A DNA stretch of 64,000 nucleotides from the NCBI GenBank assembly GCA_947038175.1, contig CAMQVJ010000003.1, positions 1 through 64,000 on the forward strand, read 5' to 3'. This stretch comes from an uncultured Desulfovibrio sp. Lineage in GTDB: Bacteria; Desulfobacterota; Desulfovibrionia; Desulfovibrionales; Desulfovibrionaceae. Position 1 is the stretch's first letter; each line of letters starts with the position of its first letter. Positions 19,401 to 36,629 of this stretch are shown in pieces. The translations under genes were made by a program, and so were the position numbers. The notes beneath the pieces are model-generated. The model was not told the origin of the DNA, did no database searches, and worked only from the letters and a program-made list of their open reading frames with translations.

Positions 19401-21437
19401 TCATATTTTTTTGTCATAAAGTCTTGCTGCGCATAGGAGTACGAGAATTGTTCCTCCATTGTGGGTCAGTGCGCCTGTTACTGGCCCTAAGAGTCCGAGG
19501 ATGGAGAGAATAACGGCAGTTATATTTATAGAAAGCGCCATGAAAATATTAAACTTGATGCTTCGCACGGTGGCGATGGAGAGTTTTTTGAGATAGGTTA
19601 TTTTTCCTAAATCTTCGCCAATAAGGGCTATGTCTGCGGCTTCTATGGCGATATCGCTGCCGGCTTTACCCATTGCTACGCCGACATCTGCGAGTTTTAG
19701 GGCGGGGGCATCGTTGACACCGTCGCCAATCATGCAAACAATATTCCCTTTTGCTTGGAATGCTTGAACTGTTTCCACTTTTTGTTCTGGGAATAAATCG
19801 CTGTGGACATCATGTATGCCCACTTGCTTGGCAAAATAATCTGCCGTTATGGCGTTGTCCCCTGTTAGGAGGGCTGTCTTTACGCCCATGGTGTTTAGTT
19901 CGTGCACCATGGTGGCGGAGCTTTCTCGTAGCTTATCTGCTAAGGCGATAAAGCCAAGGCATTCCCCATTGATTGCTATAAAAACAAGAGCTTTTCCTTG
20001 CTTTCTTAATTCGTTTTCTTTGCTTAGAATGCGTTCGCTTATGGGAATGTTTTTTTCCTCTAAAAAGGTTTTGCGTCCGCAAAGAATTATTTCGTTCGCT
20101 TCAATCTCTTCGACGCCTTTTCCTGGGAGCATGGTAAATGTGGAATTTTTGTCCGCATCGTCGCTATACAAATTCTTTGCGAATACGTTTTTATTTGTAT
20201 GGGGGTTCATTTCGTGACGGGGGGTGTTTGTATTGACTAGTGAATTTTTGGGAGAAGATTGAAGAGGACTTTTTGTGTATTCAGTATATTCGGCATGTTC
20301 AATTTGTTCAGTATCCTCGCCATATTCATTATTAAAATGACGGACAATGGCTTTTGCGAGGGGATGCTCAGAGCGTTTTTCTGCCTTTGCTGCAAAGTAT
20401 AAGAAATCTAAATCGCTATAATTTGAAAAATTAATAAGGTCGCTTACTATTAATTCACCATGGGTAAGTGTGCCTGTTTTGTCAAAGGTAATAAGGTCAA
20501 CTTCCCCCATTTTTTCAAGGGCTTCACCGCTTTTAATGAGTACTCCATTTTTTGCCGCTTGCCCTATTGCCGCCATGATAGACGTTGGGGTGGCAAGCGC
20601 CATTGCACAGGGGCAAAAAACAACAAGCACGGTGACGGCTCGAATCACACTGTCGGTAAATAAATAGGTTAAAAAAGCAATGATAATCGCCACAGGGATA
20701 AGACGCACGGCCCATGTATCCACAATGCGCTGAATGGGGCTTTCGTTTTTTGATGCTTCCTCAATCATGCGAATAAATTTTTGTAGGGATGTGTCTTTCG
20801 CTTCTTTTGTGCAGAGAATATCGAGAGAGCCGAAGCCGTTTAGAGTTCCACAAAGTACCTCATCACCTACTATTTTATCTACGGGTAATGATTCTCCCGT
20901 TAGAATAGATTGGTCTACGGAGCTTGCACCATGGATAATTTGTCCATCGACAGGAATAGTCTCCCCTGGGAAAACTCGAAGGGTGTCGCCTTTTTGTACT
21001 TCTTCTGCTAAGATACGTATTTCTTTGTTGTTTTTGTCAATCTTGCAAGCCATGGTAGGAACAAGATTAATAAGCCCCTTTATACCAGCCTTTGTTTTTT
21101 CTGTTGTTCTTTGTTCCAAAATAGAACCGATTGCCATAATCACGGCAATCTCTGCGGCGGCGAAGGCCTCACCAATCATAATCGCCGCTATAATACCAAT
21201 AGATATAAGGACAAGCGCCGTGATTCGCTTATATAAAACAAGATATTTAATGGAAAAAAAGAGAATAGGCGTGCCTGAAATTAATATGGAGAACCACGCA
21301 AAATCTAAGGGTGTTTTGTAATTAAGCATAAGGCATAGAAAACTCAAAAGAACAAATATCCCAGAGATAAGAGTCATCTTTGTGTCGTATAAAAAATTGA
21401 AAAAGAGATTTGATTTTTCGTAAATTTGATTAAACAT
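19401..21437 (-). CDS. heavy-metal translocating P1B-type ATPase
   Basis: [42 protein letters not shown]; metal specificity not assigned. Confidence 0.92.
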
Positions 21438-21851
21438 TATGTTAGCCTCATTTTAAAATATAGTCCGAAATTATCATCGGGATATTGTAGTCTATTGTGT
21501 TATTTTTTGGGAAGGAATGTCTTTATTTAAAGGTGGGTAAAAAGATATAGACCTAACCCTCGTATATAATGGAAACGTTTGTTATTTGTGAAGTATAAGC
21601 CTAAATTCTCACCCTATCTGTATAATGGAAAAGTTCCCTCTATGTTGGTGTTTTTTGCCTCTGCATTCTCTTTGCTTGCCCTTTTGGGAAACGTAAAAAA
21701 GGCGAAAGAAAAGACTCGTGTTTATTTATAATATTATCCAGAAAAGAACATTCCCAGAGAATACTAAACTAACGAAGAAAAACGCAAAAAACGCAATTAT
21801 TTTTGAAGGGGGTTAACTGATGTGTAAAAGAAAAGGGGGAGGGCAGAGATT

Positions 21852-22136
21852 CTAAACCATTCGAGAAAATTGCTCAATGACCGCACTCAATTTTTTTAGT
21901 GCTTCCTCTTCATTTCCTTCTCTCACCGCATCTAAAACACAGTGCTGAATATGAGCCTCTAGCATTGCTTGCCCTGTTTTGTGTAAGCCTGCCTTAGCCG
22001 CGCTTATCTGTACAAGCACCTCTTCGCACGATTTGTCATCCTCAAGCATTTTCTTGATGCCCTTTATTTGACCTTCTATACGGTTAAGACGTTTCACTAT
22101 GGAACTATTATCTGCACATTTCATAAATTCTCCCAT
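21852..22136 (-). CDS. csoR: CsoR-type metal-sensing repressor (DUF156 family)
   Basis: RLNRIEGQIKGIKKMLEDDKSCEEVLVQISAAKAGL...AHIQHC; C-x24-H-x3-C spacing matches the CsoR Cys-His-Cys ligand set. Confidence 0.88.
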   Translation of the reverse strand: MGEFMKCADNSSIVKRLNRIEGQIKGIKKMLEDDKSCEEVLVQISAAKAGLHKTGQAMLEAHIQHCVLDAVREGNEEEALKKLSAVIEQFSRMV

Positions 22137-22162
22137 TGGTTTTTGTTTCGTTTTGATACCGT

Positions 22163-22179
22163 ATACCCCTATAGGGTAT
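22163..22179. promoter_or_regulatory. putative CsoR-family operator
   Basis: ATACCCCTATAGGGTAT palindrome immediately upstream of csoR. Confidence 0.6.
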
Positions 22180-22333
22180 TAAGTCAATGGGTGCTTGTTG
22201 ACAGAATAAATAAATCGATATATTGAATCAAGTAAGTGTTATTTGTGTCGAGATACGTTTTTACGTAGGAAAAATACTATCTTGAAGTATATGACTTTGT
22301 ATTTTTAGAATCCCAAATAGAAAGGACAACTTT

Positions 22334-22551
22334 ATGAGTAAATTATCCGAGAAAGAATTTCTAGAATTCTTAGAAAATAGCCCATGGCGGAATCTCCACT
22401 AGAAATGGACATAAGTATCCCTGAAGATATTTTTGATTCCACAGGCAAACTTATTATTGTCATAGCTTTTTCTAGGGAATTTGATATTGCCTTGTCTGTT
22501 GACCAAATGATGCGTTGCCAAACCCCAAGAGATTTATATGGATTGTTCTAA
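22334..22551 (+). pseudogene. acyl carrier protein with a one-base frame disruption
   Basis: MSKLSEKEFLEFLENS in frame 2 (from 22334) and MAESPLEMDISIPEDIFDSTGKLIIVIAFSREFDIALSVDQMMRCQTPRDLYGLF in frame 1 (from 22384) together make one ACP with FDS-TGKL phosphopantetheine site; insertion of one C in AGCCCATGG restores a single frame. Confidence 0.7.
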
Positions 22552-23320
22552 AATTCAGACGCCTTTAAGTTATCTTGCAGGAAAAACATACTTGGTGACT
22601 GGTGCTTCGTCTGGAATTGGCCAGCACCTTGCCTTATTATTAGACAGACTAGGCGCTCGTGTTGTTTTAAATGGACGAAATGAAGAAAGGCTTAATGATA
22701 CGTTGTCAAAAATGGACGGAAAAAACCATTATATAGCCATGGCAGATATTACCAAAATTGACTGCGTGAACTGGCTTAAAGATATAGGGACCAAGGCGAA
22801 TTCCCCTCTTTCGGGCATAGCGTACTGCGCTGGCGTCCATGAATTTGTTCCCTTACGAGCTTATAACTCGGCTGCTCTTTCCTTGGCGTTCAATCAATTT
22901 ACGATATCTATGATGGACTTATTTATGGCTAGTTGCAAAATGAAAAAAGCAGATACTCTTAGTTTGGTTTTAATGTCAACTCTTAGTGCTCACCAAGGGA
23001 TTACTGGAAATGCTCTGTATGGGGCGAGCCGAGCAACTGCGGAATCATTATGCAGGAATATCGCTATAGAATTTGCACCACGCGGTGTGCATTGTAATTG
23101 TGTGGCGGGTGGCTATATGACTGGTTCAAATATGACCGACAGCTTTGTTCAACAATTAGGAAGCGACCGTATAAGCACCATTGAACAAGCTTACCCCTTA
23201 GGCTTTGGTCATGTTGCTGACGCTGCCCATATGCTTGCGTTTTTATTAAGTGATTCTAGTAAATGGATTACGGGGCAAACCTTCACAGTCGATGGCGGAT
23301 CCAGTATAAAAGGAATTTAA
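22538..23320 (+). CDS. short-chain dehydrogenase/reductase, 3-oxoacyl-ACP reductase-like, with YxxxR instead of YxxxK
   Basis: YLVTGASSGIGQHLAL; LMSTLSAHQGITGNALYGASRAT; C-terminal LLSDSSKWITGQTFTVDGGSS. Confidence 0.88.
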   Translation: MDCSKIQTPLSYLAGKTYLVTGASSGIGQHLALLLDRLGARVVLNGRNEERLNDTLSKMDGKNHYIAMADITKIDCVNWLKDIGTKANSPLSGIAYCAGVHEFVPLRAYNSAALSLAFNQFTISMMDLFMASCKMKKADTLSLVLMSTLSAHQGITGNALYGASRATAESLCRNIAIEFAPRGVHCNCVAGGYMTGSNMTDSFVQQLGSDRISTIEQAYPLGFGHVADAAHMLAFLLSDSSKWITGQTFTVDGGSSIKGI

Positions 23321-24343
23321 ATGATACAGGAATTTAATAGTGTGCGGATTGCAGGAATCAATGCGGCAGTTCCCCATAATGTAATTTCTATTAGTGATCT
23401 CGTGCAAGGTTCTGATAAACAAACAGCCTCTAAAATTAGACGCACCGCAATGTTAGCAGGATTAAAAACACGCCCTGTCGCCCTAGAAAATACAAGTGCA
23501 AAAGATTTAGCAGTTCTGGCGGGTAGAGAGCTATTAAAGAACCTTGATTGGAACACTGGTACTGTTAATGCCATCTTTTTTGTTACAGAAACTCCAGATT
23601 TTCTGATGCCAGCTACAGGATATTTTATACATCACGAACTTGGGCTTTTAGAAGAATGTGTTGTAACAGATGTAATAGCTTCTTGTAGTGGGCTTATTCA
23701 AGGTGTATGGACTGCCGCATCCCATCTTTCTGAAGACTGCTCGAGAGTACTTGTTCTTTCTGGTGATACTATGAGTAAAACTTTTTTACCTGATGATATA
23801 GGGAATCAAATTCTTTTTGGAGACGCTGTTGGAGCGATTGCCCTAGAATTTAATCCTAATCAGAATGAGCCTATAACGTTTAATCTCACATCACACCCTG
23901 ATGTTGATCTTGTTCTTGCTATCCATGGGTCTGGTGTTCGTAAAACAGAAAAACCAAAAGGGTTTTCCATGCTTGGTGAAAAAGTGATGGAATTTTCACA
24001 GACTAAAACAGTGGAAAATATTTCTGAATTATTGAATAGATTAGCGTTGAATATCGATGATATTGAAGTGTTCTTTTCCCATCAGCCCAATCTTGCGCTT
24101 TTAGAATCATTGCAAAGAAAATTAGGCTTTCCAAGAGAAAAAGTACCTTCAATTCTTGACTCCTATGGAAACTGTAGCAGTGCAAGCATTGCCTTACTTC
24201 TTTCGGACTATTTTCAGAAAAATCCTAATAAATCATTTTCAAAAGCTTTATTTTGTGGCTTTGGTGGTGGTCTTGCTGTTGCGTCTATGCTTGCACCTAT
24301 AAGTGCATCACAATGTTTTCCTATTGTTCGTTATGAACAGTAA
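23321..24343 (+). CDS. 3-oxoacyl-ACP synthase III family protein
   Basis: VIASCSGLIQG (Cys), FFSHQPNLALLESLQ (His), SYGNCSSASIAL (Asn), VLSGDTMSK. Confidence 0.88.
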   Translation: MIQEFNSVRIAGINAAVPHNVISISDLVQGSDKQTASKIRRTAMLAGLKTRPVALENTSAKDLAVLAGRELLKNLDWNTGTVNAIFFVTETPDFLMPATGYFIHHELGLLEECVVTDVIASCSGLIQGVWTAASHLSEDCSRVLVLSGDTMSKTFLPDDIGNQILFGDAVGAIALEFNPNQNEPITFNLTSHPDVDLVLAIHGSGVRKTEKPKGFSMLGEKVMEFSQTKTVENISELLNRLALNIDDIEVFFSHQPNLALLESLQRKLGFPREKVPSILDSYGNCSSASIALLLSDYFQKNPNKSFSKALFCGFGGGLAVASMLAPISASQCFPIVRYEQ

Positions 24344-24358
24344 ATGTTGGAGTTTTTC

Positions 24359-25630
24359 ATGCATAACATCGTCAAAGATTTGTTTACAATCCCTCGTTCA
24401 TTAACGGGTAATGGAGTTCGCCAAACTTTGGCGTATTTAAAAAACATGTGCCCCCTTATGACTATTCACGAAGTTCCATCAGGTACGCAGTCCTTTGATT
24501 GGACAGTTCCGCCTGAGTGGAATATTAGGGACGCATGGGTAAAAGATTCTTCTGGCAAAAAAATAATTGACTTCAAAGTACATAATTTACATGTTATGGG
24601 GTATTCAACTCCTATTCATAAGCGATGCTCTTTGGCGGAGTTATTGGAGCATGTTTATACCTTACCTGAACAACCTGATTTGATTCCTTATATAACGTCT
24701 TACTACAAAGAACGTTATGGATTTTGTATGACAGAAAATCAGAAAAATGCGTTGCTTGAGGGAGAATATGAACTCTTTATTGATAGTGACTTAAACTATG
24801 AAGGTTCGCTCACGTATGGCGAAATTATTATTCCAAGTTCTAATCCTAACGCACAAGAAATTTTCTTTTCCACCTATGTTTGTCATCCACAAATGGCAAA
24901 TAATGAACTTTCTGGGCCTGCGGTTGCCATCCATCTTGCAAAGTGGCTTATGGAAAAAGAAAATAGTAAATTTACCTATAGATTTTATTTTGGTCCTGAG
25001 ACTATAGGAAGTTTGGTTTACTTGTCAAAAAATGTAGAAGTATTAAAGAAGAATGTTTATGCCGGTTTTGTGCTTAGCTGTGTTGGTGATGATAGAGCAT
25101 ATAGTTATTTAGCAAGTCCTTATGGCGATACTATTGCCGACAAAGTGGCTCAAAATGTATTAAAATACCATGCACCAGATTACGTCAGCTATTCTTATTT
25201 ATCAAGGGGTTCAGATGAACGCCAATACTGCGCTAGTGGTATAAGATTACCCGTATGTTCAGTGATGCGCACCCGCTATGGAGCTTACCCTGAATATCAT
25301 ACATCTGGAGATGATTTGGAATTAGTAACAGAAACGGGCTTGCAAGGTGCCTTTTTAGTATATCAAAAAATTATAAATACATTAGAGTTCAATGCTTATT
25401 ATACGATGACATGTCTTGGCGAGCCACAGCTTGGCAAGCGAGGTCTTTATCCTACAATAAGTACTAAAGAAAGTGGTGATATTGTAAGGGATATGATGAA
25501 TGTTATAGCATACGCAGATGGTTCCAACGATATAATTGATATTAGTAATAAAATACACGTCAGTACCGAAGATGTTATCGGGATTATTGAAAAATTGAAA
25601 GTTGCAAACCTTATTTCTAGCATCAGTTAA
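24359..25630 (+). CDS. DUF4910 (DUF2172)-type aminopeptidase-like protein with C-terminal winged-helix segment
   Basis: RSLTGNGVRQTLAYLK, VPSGTQSFDWTVPPEWNIRDAWVKD, YVCHPQMANNELSGPAVA, RGSDERQYCASGIRLPVCSVMRTRYGAYPEYHTSGDDL; ORF-track start 24344, ATG at 24359 equally possible. Confidence 0.85.
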   Translation: MHNIVKDLFTIPRSLTGNGVRQTLAYLKNMCPLMTIHEVPSGTQSFDWTVPPEWNIRDAWVKDSSGKKIIDFKVHNLHVMGYSTPIHKRCSLAELLEHVYTLPEQPDLIPYITSYYKERYGFCMTENQKNALLEGEYELFIDSDLNYEGSLTYGEIIIPSSNPNAQEIFFSTYVCHPQMANNELSGPAVAIHLAKWLMEKENSKFTYRFYFGPETIGSLVYLSKNVEVLKKNVYAGFVLSCVGDDRAYSYLASPYGDTIADKVAQNVLKYHAPDYVSYSYLSRGSDERQYCASGIRLPVCSVMRTRYGAYPEYHTSGDDLELVTETGLQGAFLVYQKIINTLEFNAYYTMTCLGEPQLGKRGLYPTISTKESGDIVRDMMNVIAYADGSNDIIDISNKIHVSTEDVIGIIEKLKVANLISSIS

Positions 25631-25681
25631 GCTCAATAAAATCAATTAAATATAAAAATAATCATGCACCAGTAGGTATAT

Positions 25682-26446
25682 ATGAAAGAATACTCAAAAC
25701 AAGAATTAAAAGATGCTCTTTTGGACATCGGACTTATACGAGGGGATACTCTTCTCATTCATAGTGCATTGTTCCGGCTTGGGATTATTAACTGTACAGA
25801 GGTAAAGGATATCCTAAATACTATTTATACAATAATAAAAGACATTATTGGGGATAGTGGTACTATTGTAGTACCAACTTTTACATTTGGTTTTAGCTCA
25901 GGTGAAGATTTTGATATTGAGAATACTGCTTCTAAAAATATGGGAAATTTTAGTGAATATATACGAACACATGAAGCGAGTGTTCGATCAAAGCACCCGA
26001 TTCAATCAGTCAGTGCATTAGGAGATAAGGCAAAATGGATATGCGAACTCAATAGTTATTCTGGTTTTGGCAAGGACAGCCCTTTTGCTAGATTGCTAGA
26101 AGCTTCAGGAAAAATTTTGTTACTTGGTAGACCCGTCTCAACGTCCTTTGTGCATTTACTTGAAGAGTACAATCAGGTACCGTATCGTTTTTGGAAAGAA
26201 TTTTCGGGTAATTATATAAAAGACGGACTGTGTGAATATAAAACATATGGTTTATTTGTTCGTGACCATGCAACAAATCCACAAATTCAATTAAAAAAAA
26301 TTGAAAGTGTGTTGACGCTCGCTGGTAAAGTGAAAAGCTGTAAGCTCGGCGGCGGAATGGTACACTCTATCAATACAAAAGATTATTTTGAAGTAGTGAA
26401 TGAAAAGTTACAAAAAGATCCTTATTTTTGTGTGAGTGAAGTTTAG
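25682..26446 (+). CDS. AAC(3)-family (aminoglycoside 3-N-acetyltransferase-like) acyltransferase
   Basis: LIRGDTLLIHSALFRLG, TIVVPTFTFGF, RSKHPIQSVSALG, VPYRFWKEFSGNY. Confidence 0.85.
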   Translation: MKEYSKQELKDALLDIGLIRGDTLLIHSALFRLGIINCTEVKDILNTIYTIIKDIIGDSGTIVVPTFTFGFSSGEDFDIENTASKNMGNFSEYIRTHEASVRSKHPIQSVSALGDKAKWICELNSYSGFGKDSPFARLLEASGKILLLGRPVSTSFVHLLEEYNQVPYRFWKEFSGNYIKDGLCEYKTYGLFVRDHATNPQIQLKKIESVLTLAGKVKSCKLGGGMVHSINTKDYFEVVNEKLQKDPYFCVSEV

Positions 26447-26477
26447 TTATTATAAAGAACTATTCTATTACGCCGAG

Positions 26478-26532
26478 CACCACAAAAAAATCCATTAGTA
26501 GTAAAAGGTTACTAATGGATTTTTTTGTGGTG
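26478..26532. terminator. bidirectional terminator between convergent arms of the cassette
   Basis: CACCACAAAAAAATCCATTAGTA ... TACTAATGGATTTTTTTGTGGTG, perfect 23-bp arms. Confidence 0.9.
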
Positions 26533-26534
26533 TT

Positions 26535-26780
26535 TTATTTATTTAACTCTTTTTGTTCTATCATATCTAATAATACTTGAATTTTGAAATAGCCTTGCTC
26601 TTGCAAATCATCGTCTTCTGGTATCTCAATATTAAATGTTTCCTCCAAAGCCATAAAAAAAACCATGGCGTCCAATGAATCTAAGATAGCTTCATTTAAC
26701 AAATCTGTTTCTGCCGTAATGGTAACCGTTTTGTTTGTTACAGAGTTTATAACGTCATTTAATCGACTAATAGTACTCAT
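26535..26780 (-). CDS. acyl carrier protein
   Basis: LLNEAILDSLDAMVFFMALEETFNIEIPEDD; DSL attachment site. Confidence 0.9.
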   Translation of the reverse strand: MSTISRLNDVINSVTNKTVTITAETDLLNEAILDSLDAMVFFMALEETFNIEIPEDDDLQEQGYFKIQVLLDMIEQKELNK

Positions 26781-26788
26781 GTCTACTC

Positions 26789-27697
26789 CTATAATTTAAT
26801 TATCGTTGTTGCCCAAGACAGCCCGACTCCAAAACCTGATAGTAAAACTGTTTTTCCTTGCAAAGTACTGTTGCCCAGATATTCCTCAATCACAAGTGGG
26901 ATTGAAGATGAAACAGTGTTTGCACTTTCTGACATATGCATTAAACATTTATATTCTGGCAAATTGAGTGTTCTAACAAGGTTTGTTAATAAAAACTTGT
27001 TAGCTTGGTGAAAAATAAAGTAATCAATATCAACAAGCTCTAATTCATTTTTTGCCAAACATGCTTGTATCGATGGCTTTATTCTTTTCATCATAAAATT
27101 AAAGATAGATCGACCATCCATAAACAAATAGCCATCATCCCCAATGCAGAGCTTATTGGAGTTACTTCCGTCAGTGCCAAAAGTCGTAAATTGTATAGCT
27201 CCATAATCGCCAATGAACGTTGCAGTTGCTGCATCCCCGAAAATCGAAGCTGTATCTTTATTTTTATAGTTGATTATTCCAGAATAGCAATCGCAAGTTA
27301 CTATCAGTGCGTTCTTTAAATTTTCTGTGCACATTATGCCTTTAGCAATTGAAAGTGCGTATACATATCCAGAGCAACCAAGGTTGACATCAAACGCTGC
27401 GACTGAATAGGGCAAATTTAACAAAAACTGTAGCTGAGAAGAATTTTGAGGGATTTGTTTTTCAGGTGTCTGTGTCACATAAATAAGTAGCTCAATAGAC
27501 TCGCTCTTTATGTTTTCTTTTTTGAATAGCTTTTCACATGCAATTTGGGCAAGTGATAAGCCATTTTCGCCCTCACCCAAAATCTTTCTTGAAAAAAAAC
27601 CCAATTTTTCTTTTTGAAACTCGACCGTAGTACCACATAAGCCTTCAATTTCTTGAGGTGAAAGGCTTTTTGATGGAAAATGAGAGCAAATTTTCAT
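26789..27697 (-). CDS. 3-oxoacyl-ACP synthase III family protein (second copy)
   Basis: DVNLGCSGYVYALSIAKG (Cys), FIFHQANKFLL (His), SESANTVSSSIPLVI (Asn). Confidence 0.88.
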   Translation of the reverse strand: MKICSHFPSKSLSPQEIEGLCGTTVEFQKEKLGFFSRKILGEGENGLSLAQIACEKLFKKENIKSESIELLIYVTQTPEKQIPQNSSQLQFLLNLPYSVAAFDVNLGCSGYVYALSIAKGIMCTENLKNALIVTCDCYSGIINYKNKDTASIFGDAATATFIGDYGAIQFTTFGTDGSNSNKLCIGDDGYLFMDGRSIFNFMMKRIKPSIQACLAKNELELVDIDYFIFHQANKFLLTNLVRTLNLPEYKCLMHMSESANTVSSSIPLVIEEYLGNSTLQGKTVLLSGFGVGLSWATTIIKL

Positions 27698-27700
27698 ATA

Positions 27701-28258
27701 TCACCGATTAAAGTACAATGTACCTATGTGTTTTTGATTTTCATAAATATGTGAACAAGCTAGTCGCCTAGTTTCCCTTTGAAAAATAATAGAGTAGTCA
27801 CAGCCTGGAGAGTTTATTTTCTGCATATCAAGGCGATTAAAAATCCATTTCGGGGATTCATAATTTGGTAACTCCATACTGATTAACCGTTTATTCAGAG
27901 CAACGCAAGTTTTTATGAATGAACCCTCATGCTCCGTAAAGTTTACTTGTCCCGTAGAAAAAAATGCCTGCGCGCATATTTTTTGTTCATCAAATGGCAA
28001 GATTATAGGATTTAAAGATTTGTCTTCTTGATATATATATGCAACCTTGTCCTGTTTTTCTTCTTGCCACAAAAACGTTGCAGAGGCGTGTTCACCAACT
28101 TCACGCTGGATACTTATGTTGTCAGAATAAATCATTCTATTAACCTTTAAAGAATGTTGCTCACTAGGCACAAACGTATCCACCAGAAATTCATATAAAG
28201 TTGTTCCTTGCAAATAGGTTCGATCTTCAAGAAAACATAAGCGTTTAACCTTTTTCAT
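27701..28258 (-). CDS. unassigned 185-aa protein in the acyl cassette
   Basis: complete ORF directly upstream of and co-directional with KASIII/ACP; no recognised family motif. Confidence 0.65.
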   Translation of the reverse strand: MKKVKRLCFLEDRTYLQGTTLYEFLVDTFVPSEQHSLKVNRMIYSDNISIQREVGEHASATFLWQEEKQDKVAYIYQEDKSLNPIILPFDEQKICAQAFFSTGQVNFTEHEGSFIKTCVALNKRLISMELPNYESPKWIFNRLDMQKINSPGCDYSIIFQRETRRLACSHIYENQKHIGTLYFNR

Positions 28259-28468
28259 ATTTTTCCATACTTCATTAACTCTTTAGATGATTTTTAAAAT
28301 AATAGTAGCATTTCAAATAGAATGTGATATAGAGCAATAGTAATTATTTACTGTTACTATAAAATTATATGAATGAGAAGTCAATAAGACATAACCCATA
28401 AAAAAAATGCAAGTATTCCACATCAAAAAATATTTGGTTAGCCCCTGTGAATCCTCCTCACCTACGCC

Positions 28469-29191
28469 ATGTATCACAAGAGCGATGTCTGCAATTTTTC
28501 AACTGGTATTGACTTTCTCCTTTTTCTTTGGACTGCTCTTGATCGAAAGATATCTGAAACAATTTACACAGAAATAAAGACAATAATTGGAGAAGAAGGG
28601 ACAATTATTGTTCCTACATTTACCTATGGTTTTTGTAGTGGTGATGATTTTGATATTGATAATACCCCTGGAGTAGCTATGGGGAACTTTAGTGAGTATG
28701 TGAGAAAACTAGATTCTAGTATTCGTTCAAAACATCCTATGCAATCTATAAGTGCTAACGGTAGATTAGCAGAACACCTTTGTGAGGTCGATACGTATTC
28801 GACTTTTGCTGAAAATGGACCGTTTGATAGATTTATAAAGGCGTCAGGTAAAATGCTTCTTTTAGGAGTGGGTTTTGAAAATATGACAATTTTACATATT
28901 ATTGAAGAACGCTTTCAGGTCCCCTATCGCTATTGGAAAGAGTTTTCGGGGAATTACATTCAGCACGGGGAAAGTACACGGAAAACCTATGGAATGTATG
29001 TTAGAGACCTTGATTTAAACCCAGAAATAAAAATTCAAAGAATAGAGGACTACCTTACAAGCTTGAATGCTGTAAGCAAACGGTCTATTGGTGAAGGCGT
29101 GGTAAAAACGATTAATATTGTCACATATATCGATGTTTTGAGTAATGAATTGCAACACGACCCCTACTTTTTGATTAAAGAGGATGCATAA
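28469..29191 (+). pseudogene. second AAC(3)-family protein, N-terminal part missing/replaced
   Basis: aligns with 25682..26446 product from EIKTIIGEEGTIIVPTFTYGF onward, but lacks the GDTLLIHSALFRLG segment. Confidence 0.6.
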
Positions 29192-29394
29192 AGTATAACG
29201 AATATTCGATGGGATGTTTTTCGCAATATATACAGCCATATAGGCCTTAAGTTCTTCTACTCGCTCCATTCTCTAAAAAAGCATTTTTTTATCCCTTTTC
29301 TTGGACAACCAAGACAAGGGATTTTCTATGGTATTAACTAGGGAATATAAAATCTAAATTTATAACTTATTTTCACTAGACATGACAATTTCCG

Positions 29395-29553
29395 TTTTGT
29401 CATCCTCGAGCATTTTCTTAATGCCTTTTATTTGCCCTTCTATACGGTTAAGGCGTTTCACTATGGAACTATTATCTGCACATTTCATAAATTCTCCCAT
29501 TGGTTTTTGTTTCGTTTTGATACCATATACCCCCATGGGGTATTAGGTCAAGC
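29395..29553 (-). pseudogene. truncated duplicate of csoR 5' end plus its operator
   Basis: near-identical to 22034..22193; ORF reads MGEFMKCADNSSIVKRLNRIEGQIKGIKKMLEDDKTEIVMSSENKL*. Confidence 0.92.
29527..29543. promoter_or_regulatory. second copy of the putative CsoR operator
   Basis: ATACCCCCATGGGGTAT, more symmetric than the first copy. Confidence 0.55.
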
Positions 29554-30752: not shown

Positions 30753-31124
30753 ATGCCTACAGTCAGCCAACTTATTCGTTTTGAACGAAAAAAGGTTGTA
30801 AAGCGTAAGAAGACACCTGCATTGCAAGAATGTCCACAACGTCGTGGAGTATGCACTCGTGTATACACCACAACACCTAAGAAGCCTAACTCAGCGCTTC
30901 GTAAGGTTGCTCGTGTGCGTTTGACCAATGGTCTTGAAGTGTCTGCTTACATTCCAGGTGAAGGTCACAACTTACAAGAACACAGTGTCGTTATGATTCG
31001 TGGTGGTCGTGTAAAGGATTTACCTGGTGTTCGTTATCACATCGTTCGTGGTACTCTTGATACCGCTGGTGTTGCAGATCGTCGTCAACGTCGTTCAAAA
31101 TACGGCACAAAACGTCCTAAATAA
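30753..31124 (+). CDS. rpsL: 30S ribosomal protein S12
   Basis: [69 protein letters not shown] before ATG at 30753. Confidence 0.99.
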
Positions 31125-31176
31125 ATTTTAGTTACATTCTTTTCGATCATGCGGTGGTTCCGCTTGCTCGTTTTGA

Positions 31177-31668
<492 letters not shown>

Positions 31669-31678
31669 GTCGTAAAAT

Positions 31679-33751
31679 ATGTCACGTAGTTTTGAAATTA
31701 AAAATATTCGTAATATCGGCATCATGGCCCATATTGACGCAGGTAAAACAACAACCACAGAACGTATTTTGTTCTACACTGGTGTTTCCCATAAAATTGG
31801 TGAAACACATGACGGTGGCGCTACCATGGATTTCATGGAGCAAGAACAAGAACGTGGTATCACTATTACTTCTGCGGCAACTCAATGCACATGGGATAAT
31901 CATACGATTAACATCATTGATACTCCTGGACACGTTGACTTCACAATTGAAGTAGAACGTTCTCTTCGTGTACTTGATGGAGCTGTTGCGGTATTTGATG
32001 CTGTTGCTGGTGTTGAACCTCAGTCAGAAACTGTATGGCGTCAAGCTAATAGCTACAATGTACCTCGTATCTGCTTCATTAATAAAATGGACAGAATTGG
32101 TGCAAACCATGCTCGCTGTGTTGATATGATTCGTGACCGCTTAAAAGCAAAGCCAATCATGTTGCAAATTCCAATCGGTAACGAAGACCTTTTTGAAGGT
32201 GTCGTTGATCTTATCTCTGGTCGTGCTATCAAATTTGATAAGCAAACCAAGGGCGCTGATTTCTGGGAAGAAGATATTCCTGCTGATATGATGGAACTTT
32301 ACGAAGAAAAGCGTATCGAAATGCTCGAAGCTGTTGCAGAAGAGGACGAAGTTCTTCTTAATAAATATCTTGATGGTGGAATCTTGACTACAGAAGAAAT
32401 TATTTCTTGCGTACGTAAAGCAACTATCTCTCAAGCTATTGTTCCTGTAATGTGCGGAACTGCGTTCCGTAACATGGGCGTGCAACCACTTCTTGATGCT
32501 ATTGTTCGTTACTTGCCTTCTCCTCTTGATATTCCACCAATGGTGGGCATTGACCCTGACGATAAAGAGAAAGAAATCGAATGTCTTCCAATTGATAAGA
32601 ATCCTCTCGCAGGACTTGTTTTCAAATTGGCATCTGATCCATTTATTGGTCACCTTTCCTTCTTCCGCGTTTATTCTGGTAGTGTTGAGCCTGGTACAAC
32701 TTTGCTCAATACAAATACTGGTAAAAAAGAACGTGTTGGTCGTATCGTTCGTATGCACGCTAACAAGCGTGACGAAATCAAATGGGCTGGCGCTGGCGAC
32801 ATCGTAGCTCTTGTTGGTATCAAGAACGTATCTACTGGTGACACTCTTTGTAGCGAAAGCGCACCTGTAAAGCTTGAATCACTGAATATTCCTGAACCTG
32901 TTATTGAGCTCGCTATTGAGCCAAAAACAAAAGCAGACCGTGATTCTCTTTCTGCAGCACTTAATAAGCTTGCTAAGGAAGATCCTTCCTTTAGAGTTAA
33001 GGGTGATGAAGAAACAGGGCAAACTGTTATTGCTGGTATGGGCGAATTGCACCTTGAAATTATCGTTGACCGTTTGGTTCGTGAGTTTGGCGTACAAGCA
33101 AACGTGGGTAAACCACAAGTTGCTTACCGTGAAACTATTGGCAAGCCAAGCAAATCTGATACCAAGTACGCAAAGCAATCAGGTGGTCGTGGACAATACG
33201 GACACGTTATCATTGAAGTTGCACCAAACCCAGGCAATGGCTATGAGTTTGTGAACTCTATCTCCGGTGGTGTTATTCCTAAGGAATACATTCCTGCTGT
33301 AGATAAGGGTATTCAAGATGCGCTTAAGAGCGGTGTTCTTGCTGGTTTCCCAGTTGTTGACGTAAAGGTAAACCTTATTTTTGGTTCTTACCATGAAGTT
33401 GACTCCTCTGAACAAGCGTTCTACATTGCTGGTAGTATGGCGATTAAAGATGGTATGCAAAAAGCTACTCCTACACTTCTCGAGCCTATCATGGACGTTG
33501 AAGTTGTAACTCCTGACGATTACCTCGGTGACGTTATGGGTGACCTTAATGGTCGTCGTGGTCGTGTGCAAGGTATGGATGCTCGCTCTGGTGCGCAATC
33601 TATCCGTTGCCAAGTGCCTCTTTCTGAAATGTTTGGTTATGCAACTGACCTTCGTTCAAAGACTCAAGGTCGCGCAACATTCACCATGCAATTTGACCAT
33701 TATGAAAAAGTACCTGCAAGCATTGCTGAAGGTCTTACAAAGAAAGACTAA
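31679..33751 (+). CDS. fusA: elongation factor G
   Basis: [50 protein letters not shown]. Confidence 0.99.
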
Positions 33752-33788
33752 TTTTATATAAGCAATTTGCTTTATAAAAAAGTATATA

Positions 33789-33821
33789 AAAAGCCGTTCA
33801 TTTTTGAGCGGCTTTTTTTTT
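33789..33821 (+). terminator. fusA terminator
   Basis: AAGCCGTTCA-TTTT-TGAGCGGCTTTTTTTT. Confidence 0.9.
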
Positions 33822-33902: not shown

Positions 33903-36437
33903 ATGAAATTTTGCAATAGTATTTCTCTTTGTTTACTTGTGTTTTGCAGCGCTTGCGGTGGCGGTGGTTCTGGCGGCGGTGGTGCTGGCGGTAATGCTGG
34001 CGGTGGTCCTATAGTTTATGTCACCAAGGATGTTACAGTAAGTGATTTTGATTCTGAGCACGCCCCGGATCCAGAAGTTTTTCATAATTTTCCTTTGTAC
34101 GGTGTTTATTATGCCCCCCTTTCTGGTACTCAAGGTAATTCCCATATTTTAGATAGTGATGTAGTCCTACATAACTCTAACATTGTTGGTACTATGGGTT
34201 ATGACGTTTATGGTGTTTATGCTATAAATGATGGGACAGAACAAACAATTAAAATGACCAATAATTCTGTTACCATTTCCGAAAGCAATATACAAGCTGG
34301 TGGCTGTGACCCTACCATGGTATGCGGTAAAGGAGTCGATATTTATGGAGCATGGACAACAAATGGTATAAACCACATTGCCACAGAAAATAGAGTTTCC
34401 ATTTCTAACAGTACATTAAGCTCCGTAGGCAATAAGACCGGTGAGGATTATTCGGCTTGGGATACGGATGTTGTTGGTGGTTACGCAGTAGGTAATAATA
34501 GTACAATTGCAAATAATTCTGTATCTGTATCTGATGGTAGCAAATTGCAATCGCAAAATCATGTAAGGGTTTATGGCGGACACGCTAACATTAACTTGGG
34601 TAATAACAGTACAATTACAAACAATTCTGTTTCCATTACTGATAGCTCTTTATTTGCAGCTGAATATGTTGAAGTTATTGGTGGGGTAAAAACAGGTGGA
34701 AACAATGCACAAATTACAAATAATTCTGTTTATATTTCAAATTCGACCATAACGAGCGCCTCGAGGATACAAAAGGATAAATCAGTTAAAATTTTAGGTG
34801 GATATGCTAAAAATGGTGGCACAGGCAATAATGTCACAAATAATAAGGTTACGTTTCATGGTAATGTCACACTCGAGCTGGGTAATTACGGTTTACTTAT
34901 CGCTGGTGGCTCAGGTGGCTCAGCTGGTTTGACGGATGGCGTTCATGCTACTGGTGATTTTCGCACAGGCAATACTCTTGTATTAGATAACGCCACTGTG
35001 AAGATATTGAGGACTGGGGCTGGAGTCAAACGGCTCGAAAATTTTGACAAGTATGTTTTCAAACCCTCTTACGCACAAATAATGGATGTAGATAATACAC
35101 CTATGATAGCAGGGATGGATTTTTATCTTGGCACTGATGCGCATCTTAGTATAGAAGGCGATGTGGGTGGTTCTTCAACAATTCCAATGAATCAACAAAT
35201 TGTTTTGATGCAGGGAAGTTTTACTGGGAATTTTGAGAATATAAATGATACATTTGCCCTGCAACAGGGTTTATCAAGCTATTATGATGTTGAAGTAAGT
35301 TTAGTAAGCAAACTTATCGCTAAAATTGCTAGTGCCCCTAAGACAAGCAGGCAAGCCTCTGTTCCTGCAGAAGCGCAAGTTGCCTCCACATCTTTGCTTA
35401 ATGAAGCCACTAACTTTGTAAGTGGCGCAGGTATAACAAGTGCTCTTTCTGCTACAAGGCTGGCAAACGCTAACTCTTTTGCGGCGAATGGCCGTGCGCT
35501 TGCCGTGAGTGGTGCTATGATGGGATCGGCTGTTAACAGCACGATATCGAACACGACAGGGCAAACTGGAATTTCTTCACAAAGCATTCAGCAAAATGCT
35601 CATTGGGCAAATTCTAGCTGGGCAAGTTTTTCTGCCGCAAGTGCTGGTAGTTCAAGTTATAATTCAAGCTCTTCAACATCATCTATTGATGTTGATAGTT
35701 ATTCTATACTTAGTGGTCTTGCCAGACGTTTTGCGATGCAAAAAGGAAGTATGCTCGTTGGGTTATTTGCTGAATACGGAAATGCAGACATTGATACACA
35801 CAATAAATTTGATAGCCAATCGGATATAAAAGGAACAGGCGACAGCTCTTACATGGGCGGTGGTATTCTTGGGCGTTTTGACCACTATTCAGGCATGTAT
35901 GCCGATGCGTCTCTTCGCCTAGGCAGGACAACGACGGAACATTCTAGCTCTGATTATCAAGGCTTTTCCGGTCGCAATATATCTTACGATACAGAATCAC
36001 TTTATTTTAGCACTCATATTGCCCTCGGTTATAATTGGAAAATGTTTGGCGCAGGTAATGCAGATGTATATGCTAAATATCTATGGGCGCACATGAGTGG
36101 TGATGACGCCAATATTATTGGTGATGAATATAAATTCAGCGATGTTAATTCCCATAGAGCACGCCTTGGCACACGCTATACCCATGCTCTTAACAAATAT
36201 ATCAGCCCATTTTTTGGGGCGGCTTATGAGTATGAGTTTGATAGCTATGCCCATTCCTCTGTCCGTGGAATGGATTTTGAAGCTCCCAATCTTAGGGGCG
36301 GTACGGGTATTTTTGAAGGAGGTATCAGCTTGACACCTCTCGCGAATGGACCTGTTACGCTTGATTTGAATACAGAAATTTTTGTGGGCATGCGTGAAGG
36401 GTATATGGTTAATGCACAACTTGTGTATGATTTCTAG
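33903..36437 (+). CDS. autotransporter with Gly-rich N-terminal linker, repetitive passenger and C-terminal beta-barrel
   Basis: signal-like [27 protein letters not shown]; repeated [21 protein letters not shown] units; C-terminal autotransporter pattern ending in VYDF. Confidence 0.85.
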
Positions 36438-36464: not shown

Positions 36465-36629
36465 TAAAGACACAAGGTCGCGCAACATTCACCATGCAAT
36501 TTGACCACTGCGAAAAAGTTCCTGCAAGCATTGCTGAAGGTCTTACAAAGAAAGACTAATTTTATATAAGCAATTTGCTTTATAAAAAAGTATATAAAAA
36601 GCCGTTCATTTTTGAGCGGCTTTTTTTTA
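36465..36629 (+). repeat. duplicated 3' end of fusA plus terminator
   Basis: near-identical to 33658..33821 (ACAAGGTCGCGCAACATTCACCATGCAATTTGACCA ... AAAGACTAATTTTATATAAGC ... terminator). Confidence 0.95.

Follow-up and report, generated by a model that had tools for sequence, protein, structure and literature searches.

A truncated csoR copy differing only silently from the intact gene at the edge of an inserted block in an uncultured Desulfovibrio genome

The csoR–rpsL locus

The window, a 64,000-nucleotide stretch of an uncultured Desulfovibrio sp. (contig CAMQVJ010000003.1 of assembly GCA_947038175.1), contains an intact csoR and, ~7 kb away on the same (minus) strand, a partial copy that corresponds to its first third. 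Self-BLAST of the window paired 22029–22187 with 29393–29551 over 159 bp at 93.7% identity (E ~1e-64). When the two copies were aligned, the shared stretch was 156 bp long and 94% identical, running from the −35 box (TTGAC) through codon 31 (GAT GAC AAA), and the sequences beyond both of its ends were unrelated. The features of the locus are as follows, each with the evidence on which it was assigned.

19401–21437, minus strand: copA-type copper P1B-ATPase (TIGR01511, 418.7 bits against a cut-off of 397; congener synteny)
21852–22124, minus strand: intact csoR, starting MKCADNSS (PF02583, open reading frame, congener orthologues)
22032–22187, minus strand: first repeat copy, spanning the −35 box through codon 31 of the intact csoR (self-BLAST, alignment)
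22163–22187, minus strand: promoter-operator of the intact csoR, TTGACTTAATACCCTATAGGGGTAT (pattern search)
22188–29395, no strand: inserted block, ~7.2 kb, 36% GC (congener synteny, GC)
22538–23320, plus strand: SDR/3-oxoacyl reductase-like (Pfam PF13561)
23321–24343, plus strand: KAS III-like (Pfam PF08541, PF08545)
24344–25630, plus strand: DUF4910/DUF2172 aminopeptidase-like (Pfam)
25682–26446, plus strand: AAC(3)-family N-acyltransferase-like (Pfam PF02522)
26535–26780, minus strand: acyl carrier protein (Pfam PF00550)
26789–27697, minus strand: second KAS III-like (Pfam; a sugar-type cluster of congener G004 contains a relative with 52% identity)
27701–28258, minus strand: protein of unassigned family adjoining KAS III (a relative with 29% identity adjoins KAS III in G004)
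28469–29191, plus strand: second AAC(3)-like, with the N-terminal part absent or exchanged (PF02522 match beginning at profile position 17)
29396–29551, minus strand: repeat copy 2, the truncated csoR fragment with promoter/operator and codons 1–31 (self-BLAST, PF02583, alignment)
29527–29551, minus strand: promoter-operator of the fragment, TTGACCTAATACCCCATGGGGGTAT, with the TAC-X9-GTA half-sites kept (pattern search)
30754–33751, plus strand: rpsL-rpsG-fusA operon, directly adjoining csoR in three congeners

The intact csoR, which adjoins the copper P-type ATPase gene, matched Pfam PF02583 at 92.6 bits, above the cut-off, over positions 2–77 of 78, and the congener orthologues were 61–66% identical to it. 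Its translation (DDKSC...AHIQHC) contains the Cu(I) ligand pattern C-x24-H-x3-C, with a spacing of +25/+29 like that of C36/H61/C65 in M. tuberculosis CsoR. By the PF02583 match and this C-H-C ligand pattern, the predicted protein is a member of the CsoR family. The gap between csoR and copA (21438–21851) is 415 bp here and roughly 26–65 bp in four congeners.

The fragment, in contrast to the intact gene, matched PF02583 at profile positions 2–27 only (33.9 bits), and after codon 31 its frame continues through 11 codons of unrelated sequence to a stop. It ends just ahead of where the first Cu(I)-ligand Cys would be, retaining the operator and the RLxR motif but neither the Cu(I) ligands nor the full three-helix domain of a functional CsoR. 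Lacking the copper-binding part, this stub cannot serve as a copper sensor.

Type-2 CsoR operators have been defined as TAC-X9-GTA (PMC3902906), and this form, with its G/C tracts, was seen at both copies as TAC CCTATAGGG GTA and TAC CCCATGGGG GTA. The promoter-operator pattern occurred twice in this genome and once in each of the four csoR-bearing congener genomes, and the operator of the stub may still bind CsoR. The intact gene resembles the CsoR repressors with type-2 operators (PMC3902906) in the PF02583 domain, the C-H-C ligands, the RLxR motif of helix 1, the TAC-X9-GTA operator and the adjoining copper ATPase, whereas the fragment has lost the ligands.

In three congeners (G002, G004 and G005) copA-csoR is located immediately beside rpsL-rpsG-fusA in divergent orientation; therefore, the block found here is an insertion, the empty site without the block having been seen in other species only. 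In the window, the 7.2-kb block, which is lower in GC, separates the intact csoR, next to copA, from the fragment, which lies towards rpsL, and an additional FMN-reductase gene lies between the stub and rpsL. Because of this gene and the 415-bp gap between csoR and copA, other rearrangements must have occurred at the locus and a single event is uncertain. In the fourth congener (G003; L037, L054), copA-csoR is distant from rpsL and the csoR–rpsL neighbourhood is also broken, with a gene for an acyltransferase-like membrane protein upstream of rpsL; neither a second csoR nor a second operator was found in that genome.

The block probably consists of foreign genes for acyl or amino-sugar modification. 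A similar block was found in none of the congeners, plasmids or phages, the congeners having only short gene pieces at the DNA level. The G004 cluster that holds the KAS III relative, along with the relative of its unassigned neighbour gene, reads, from its translations, as one for surface-sugar synthesis. The true 5' end of the second AAC(3)-like gene (28469–29191) seems to be lost, so that the right end of the block is made up of two truncated genes. Between this gene and the csoR stub, a strong hairpin was predicted at 29290–29322 (−18.9 kcal/mol, z −5.2), which is probably a terminator.

Differences between the two csoR copies

Nine differences were found across the 156 bp, five in the coding part and four upstream of the start codon. 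Within codons 1–31 there are exactly five, all of them synonymous and at third positions: CGT/CGC at codon 12, GGT/GGG at codon 18, AAG/AAA at codon 21, ATC/ATT at codon 23 and CTT/CTC at codon 27. The statement of the initial annotation that the truncated copy differs from the intact gene only at synonymous sites was thus borne out by the alignment, and the NG86 method applied to the 31 codons (17 synonymous and 76 non-synonymous sites) gave a dS of ~0.37 and a dN of 0.

For this sample of five changes in 31 codons, the probability that all five are silent is 0.0002–0.001 if every change hit a neutral fragment, and 0.003–0.010 for a neutral fragment paired with an intact gene that admitted silent changes alone. 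The corresponding values are 0.035–0.05 for a fragment unconstrained during half of its separate history and ~0.14–0.18 for one unconstrained during a quarter of it. The low probability of silent-only change under drift argues that both copies were working alleles while they diverged. Judging from five changes, the stub was probably part of a working gene for the greater part of its separate history, and so the truncation would be comparatively recent, younger than the split of the alleles.

The four upstream differences are at indices 5, 14, 17 and 26 counted from TTGAC, that is, at the last base of the −35 box, at two positions in the operator centre and at one in the −10 region, and they leave the conserved half-sites of the operator untouched. 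The retention of the operator and of the −35 and −10 elements by the fragment is a further indication that it descends from a working allele. The two changes in the operator centre seemed symmetric and were considered as dyad-compensatory, but they are unpaired relative to the TAC-X9-GTA dyad. A crossover tract within a mosaic repeat was also considered, since the copies share a difference-free stretch of 71 bp, but such a stretch has a probability of 0.26 when only silent and non-coding sites are variable, and the idea was dropped for csoR.

Recombination anchored in csoR and its alternatives

The explanation that we regard as probable is that two csoR alleles diverged while working and were then joined 7.2 kb apart by recombination that was anchored in csoR and added the foreign block. 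The donor and resident alleles would have diverged as working genes in separate strains or sister species, and the block would have entered at the junction of copA-csoR with the rpsL operon, using csoR as the anchor. One possible route is a single crossover by which a circular DNA carrying only the 5' part of csoR entered the chromosome; in the other, homologous recombination on one side would be combined with an illegitimate join on the other, within the resident csoR at codon 31. By either route, a complete csoR would remain towards copA and a 5' stub carrying its own promoter towards rpsL. The arrangement in the window agrees with this, as a complete copy of the anchor lies at one edge of the block and a truncated copy at the other, and the inner end of each repeat copy abuts the block. 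We infer the recombination route from this arrangement, in which a single crossover and homology-facilitated illegitimate recombination are indistinguishable. Either copy, or part of each, may have come from the donor, and the transfer may have run either way; integration by a single crossover could have made both copies chimaeras.

Integrase-driven islands can displace a gene end to the far side of the island, and the displaced end at the far side is alike here. However, no integrase or transposase was found among the genes of the block, and the repeats are not identical att cores but differ by 6%. Two other systems also offer likenesses. Single-crossover events in E. coli yield partial duplications of the anchor locus of 109–950 bp (PMC3240628), compared with 156–159 bp here, and in the lacZ case with a truncated circle, complete and truncated copies of the anchor flank the added DNA as they do in the window (PMC3240628); that case was made with an experimental plasmid, whereas here a natural block is flanked by alleles 6% apart and the route is an inferred one. 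In V. cholerae, displaced gene ends have been attributed to homology-facilitated illegitimate recombination, and at its T6SS effector loci new genes lie beside the displaced end of the old gene with a one-sided homology anchor, as here (PMC5361080). Unlike those loci (PMC5361080), ours carries other cargo, has a regulatory gene as the anchor and comes with no intermediate strains.

Which of the copies is the newcomer bears on two alternatives. Because gene order puts the fragment on the rpsL side, which is the resident one, the resident 5' end may survive, displaced, in the fragment, and the newcomer would then be the 5' end of the intact csoR. In its full form, this alternative has linear donor DNA undergo homologous recombination in csoR/copA and an illegitimate join within the resident csoR, so that the fragment was left as a remnant and the intact csoR, in whole or at its 5' end, was brought in, and we hold it as a tentative possibility. 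The fragment and its promoter lie towards rpsL, as the csoR 5' end does in congeners; this position, the unusual 415-bp gap from the intact csoR to copA, and the displaced gene ends described for such a mechanism (PMC5361080) are consistent with this alternative. On the other hand, the mechanism is rare and usually accompanied by deletions (PMC3240628), no strain polarises the change, and the sequence from the fragment to rpsL resembles that of congeners only near the rpsL promoter.

The reverse assignment, in which the cassette brought the fragment in as donor DNA and the intact csoR is wholly resident, is that of the initial annotation, and we consider it rather doubtful. The part of it that derives the fragment from another functional allele is favoured by the silent-only divergence and by the retained operator, −35 and −10 elements; its arrival with the cassette is one of the possible readings. 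The fragment adjoins the cassette, and a single crossover near the promoter end would make its coding part donor DNA, but its promoter side faces rpsL as it does ancestrally and a resident remnant fits equally well. Moreover, the two copies differ at 5 of 93 sites, as compared with 35–41 from any congener, and at that distance the five sites cannot be polarised. A search for a donor of the block or of the csoR allele in viral contigs (by exact pattern), plasmids, phages and congeners found none, and a scan of genome contigs gave only distant CsoR relatives, 33–48% identical.

It is unlikely that two full-length csoR paralogues diverged under selection in one genome and that a later insertion truncated one of them. 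Although this would account equally well for the silent-only change and the two operators, the four congeners have a single csoR each and an extra duplication would be required. It is very unlikely that the csoR 5' end was duplicated locally in this genome and that the dead copy then drifted. In the csoR tree the copies are sisters with 100/100 support, as this origin would predict and as the initial annotation had named as an argument against another lineage; the tree compares one genome per species, so that it makes them mutual closest relatives among these genomes and does not reach alleles of sister strains. Against the duplication are the absence of any amino-acid change among the five differences (0.003–0.010, as calculated above), in line with the objection of the initial annotation to pseudogene drift, and the 7.2-kb block that separates the copies. 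Finally, an assembly chimaera of two strains is highly improbable even for a draft genome of 149 contigs, because the truncation junction has no repeat by which contigs could be mis-joined and contamination is 0.13%.

Other repeats and the meaning of the stub

A second repeat was seen at the distal end of the rpsL operon. The last 31 codons of fusA and its terminator (33658–33820) are repeated at 36466–36628 with 97% identity, downstream of an autotransporter gene (33903–36437) that the pair flanks. Five differences, including TAT/TGC (Tyr to Cys), fall within the first ~55 bp, and the next ~105 bp are identical. Since this repeat contains a Tyr-to-Cys change, silent-only divergence is not general here. 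An extra fusA end noticed in G003 proved to be merely a 127-base contig overlap. We give little credence to the idea that the csoR 5' and fusA 3' scars, each ~160 bp long, reflect one repeated mechanism of this lineage that adds blocks at highly conserved operons, using the end of a core gene as the anchor and leaving the core gene whole.

Among the repeats inspected in ~350 kb of other stretches sampled from this genome, no comparable gene-end stub was found, which argues that the csoR stub is not a general feature of the genome. The other direct repeats in these stretches were dispersed non-coding elements or larger local duplications. One dispersed non-coding family, with GGGAGTTGAACTCCCC-like sequence and CCTTTGG palindromes, was seen at L065:2960–3129 and L065:16282–16449 and in L066, L079 and L081.

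The event proposed for csoR is of a known kind and its product is an ordinary genome scar, which leaves the knowledge of copper sensing unchanged. It marks the csoR–rpsL junction as a site of block addition. The silent-only difference between gene and stub is a usable marker of separate working alleles, and stubs of this kind can thus preserve a record of imported genes for which no donor genome has been identified.
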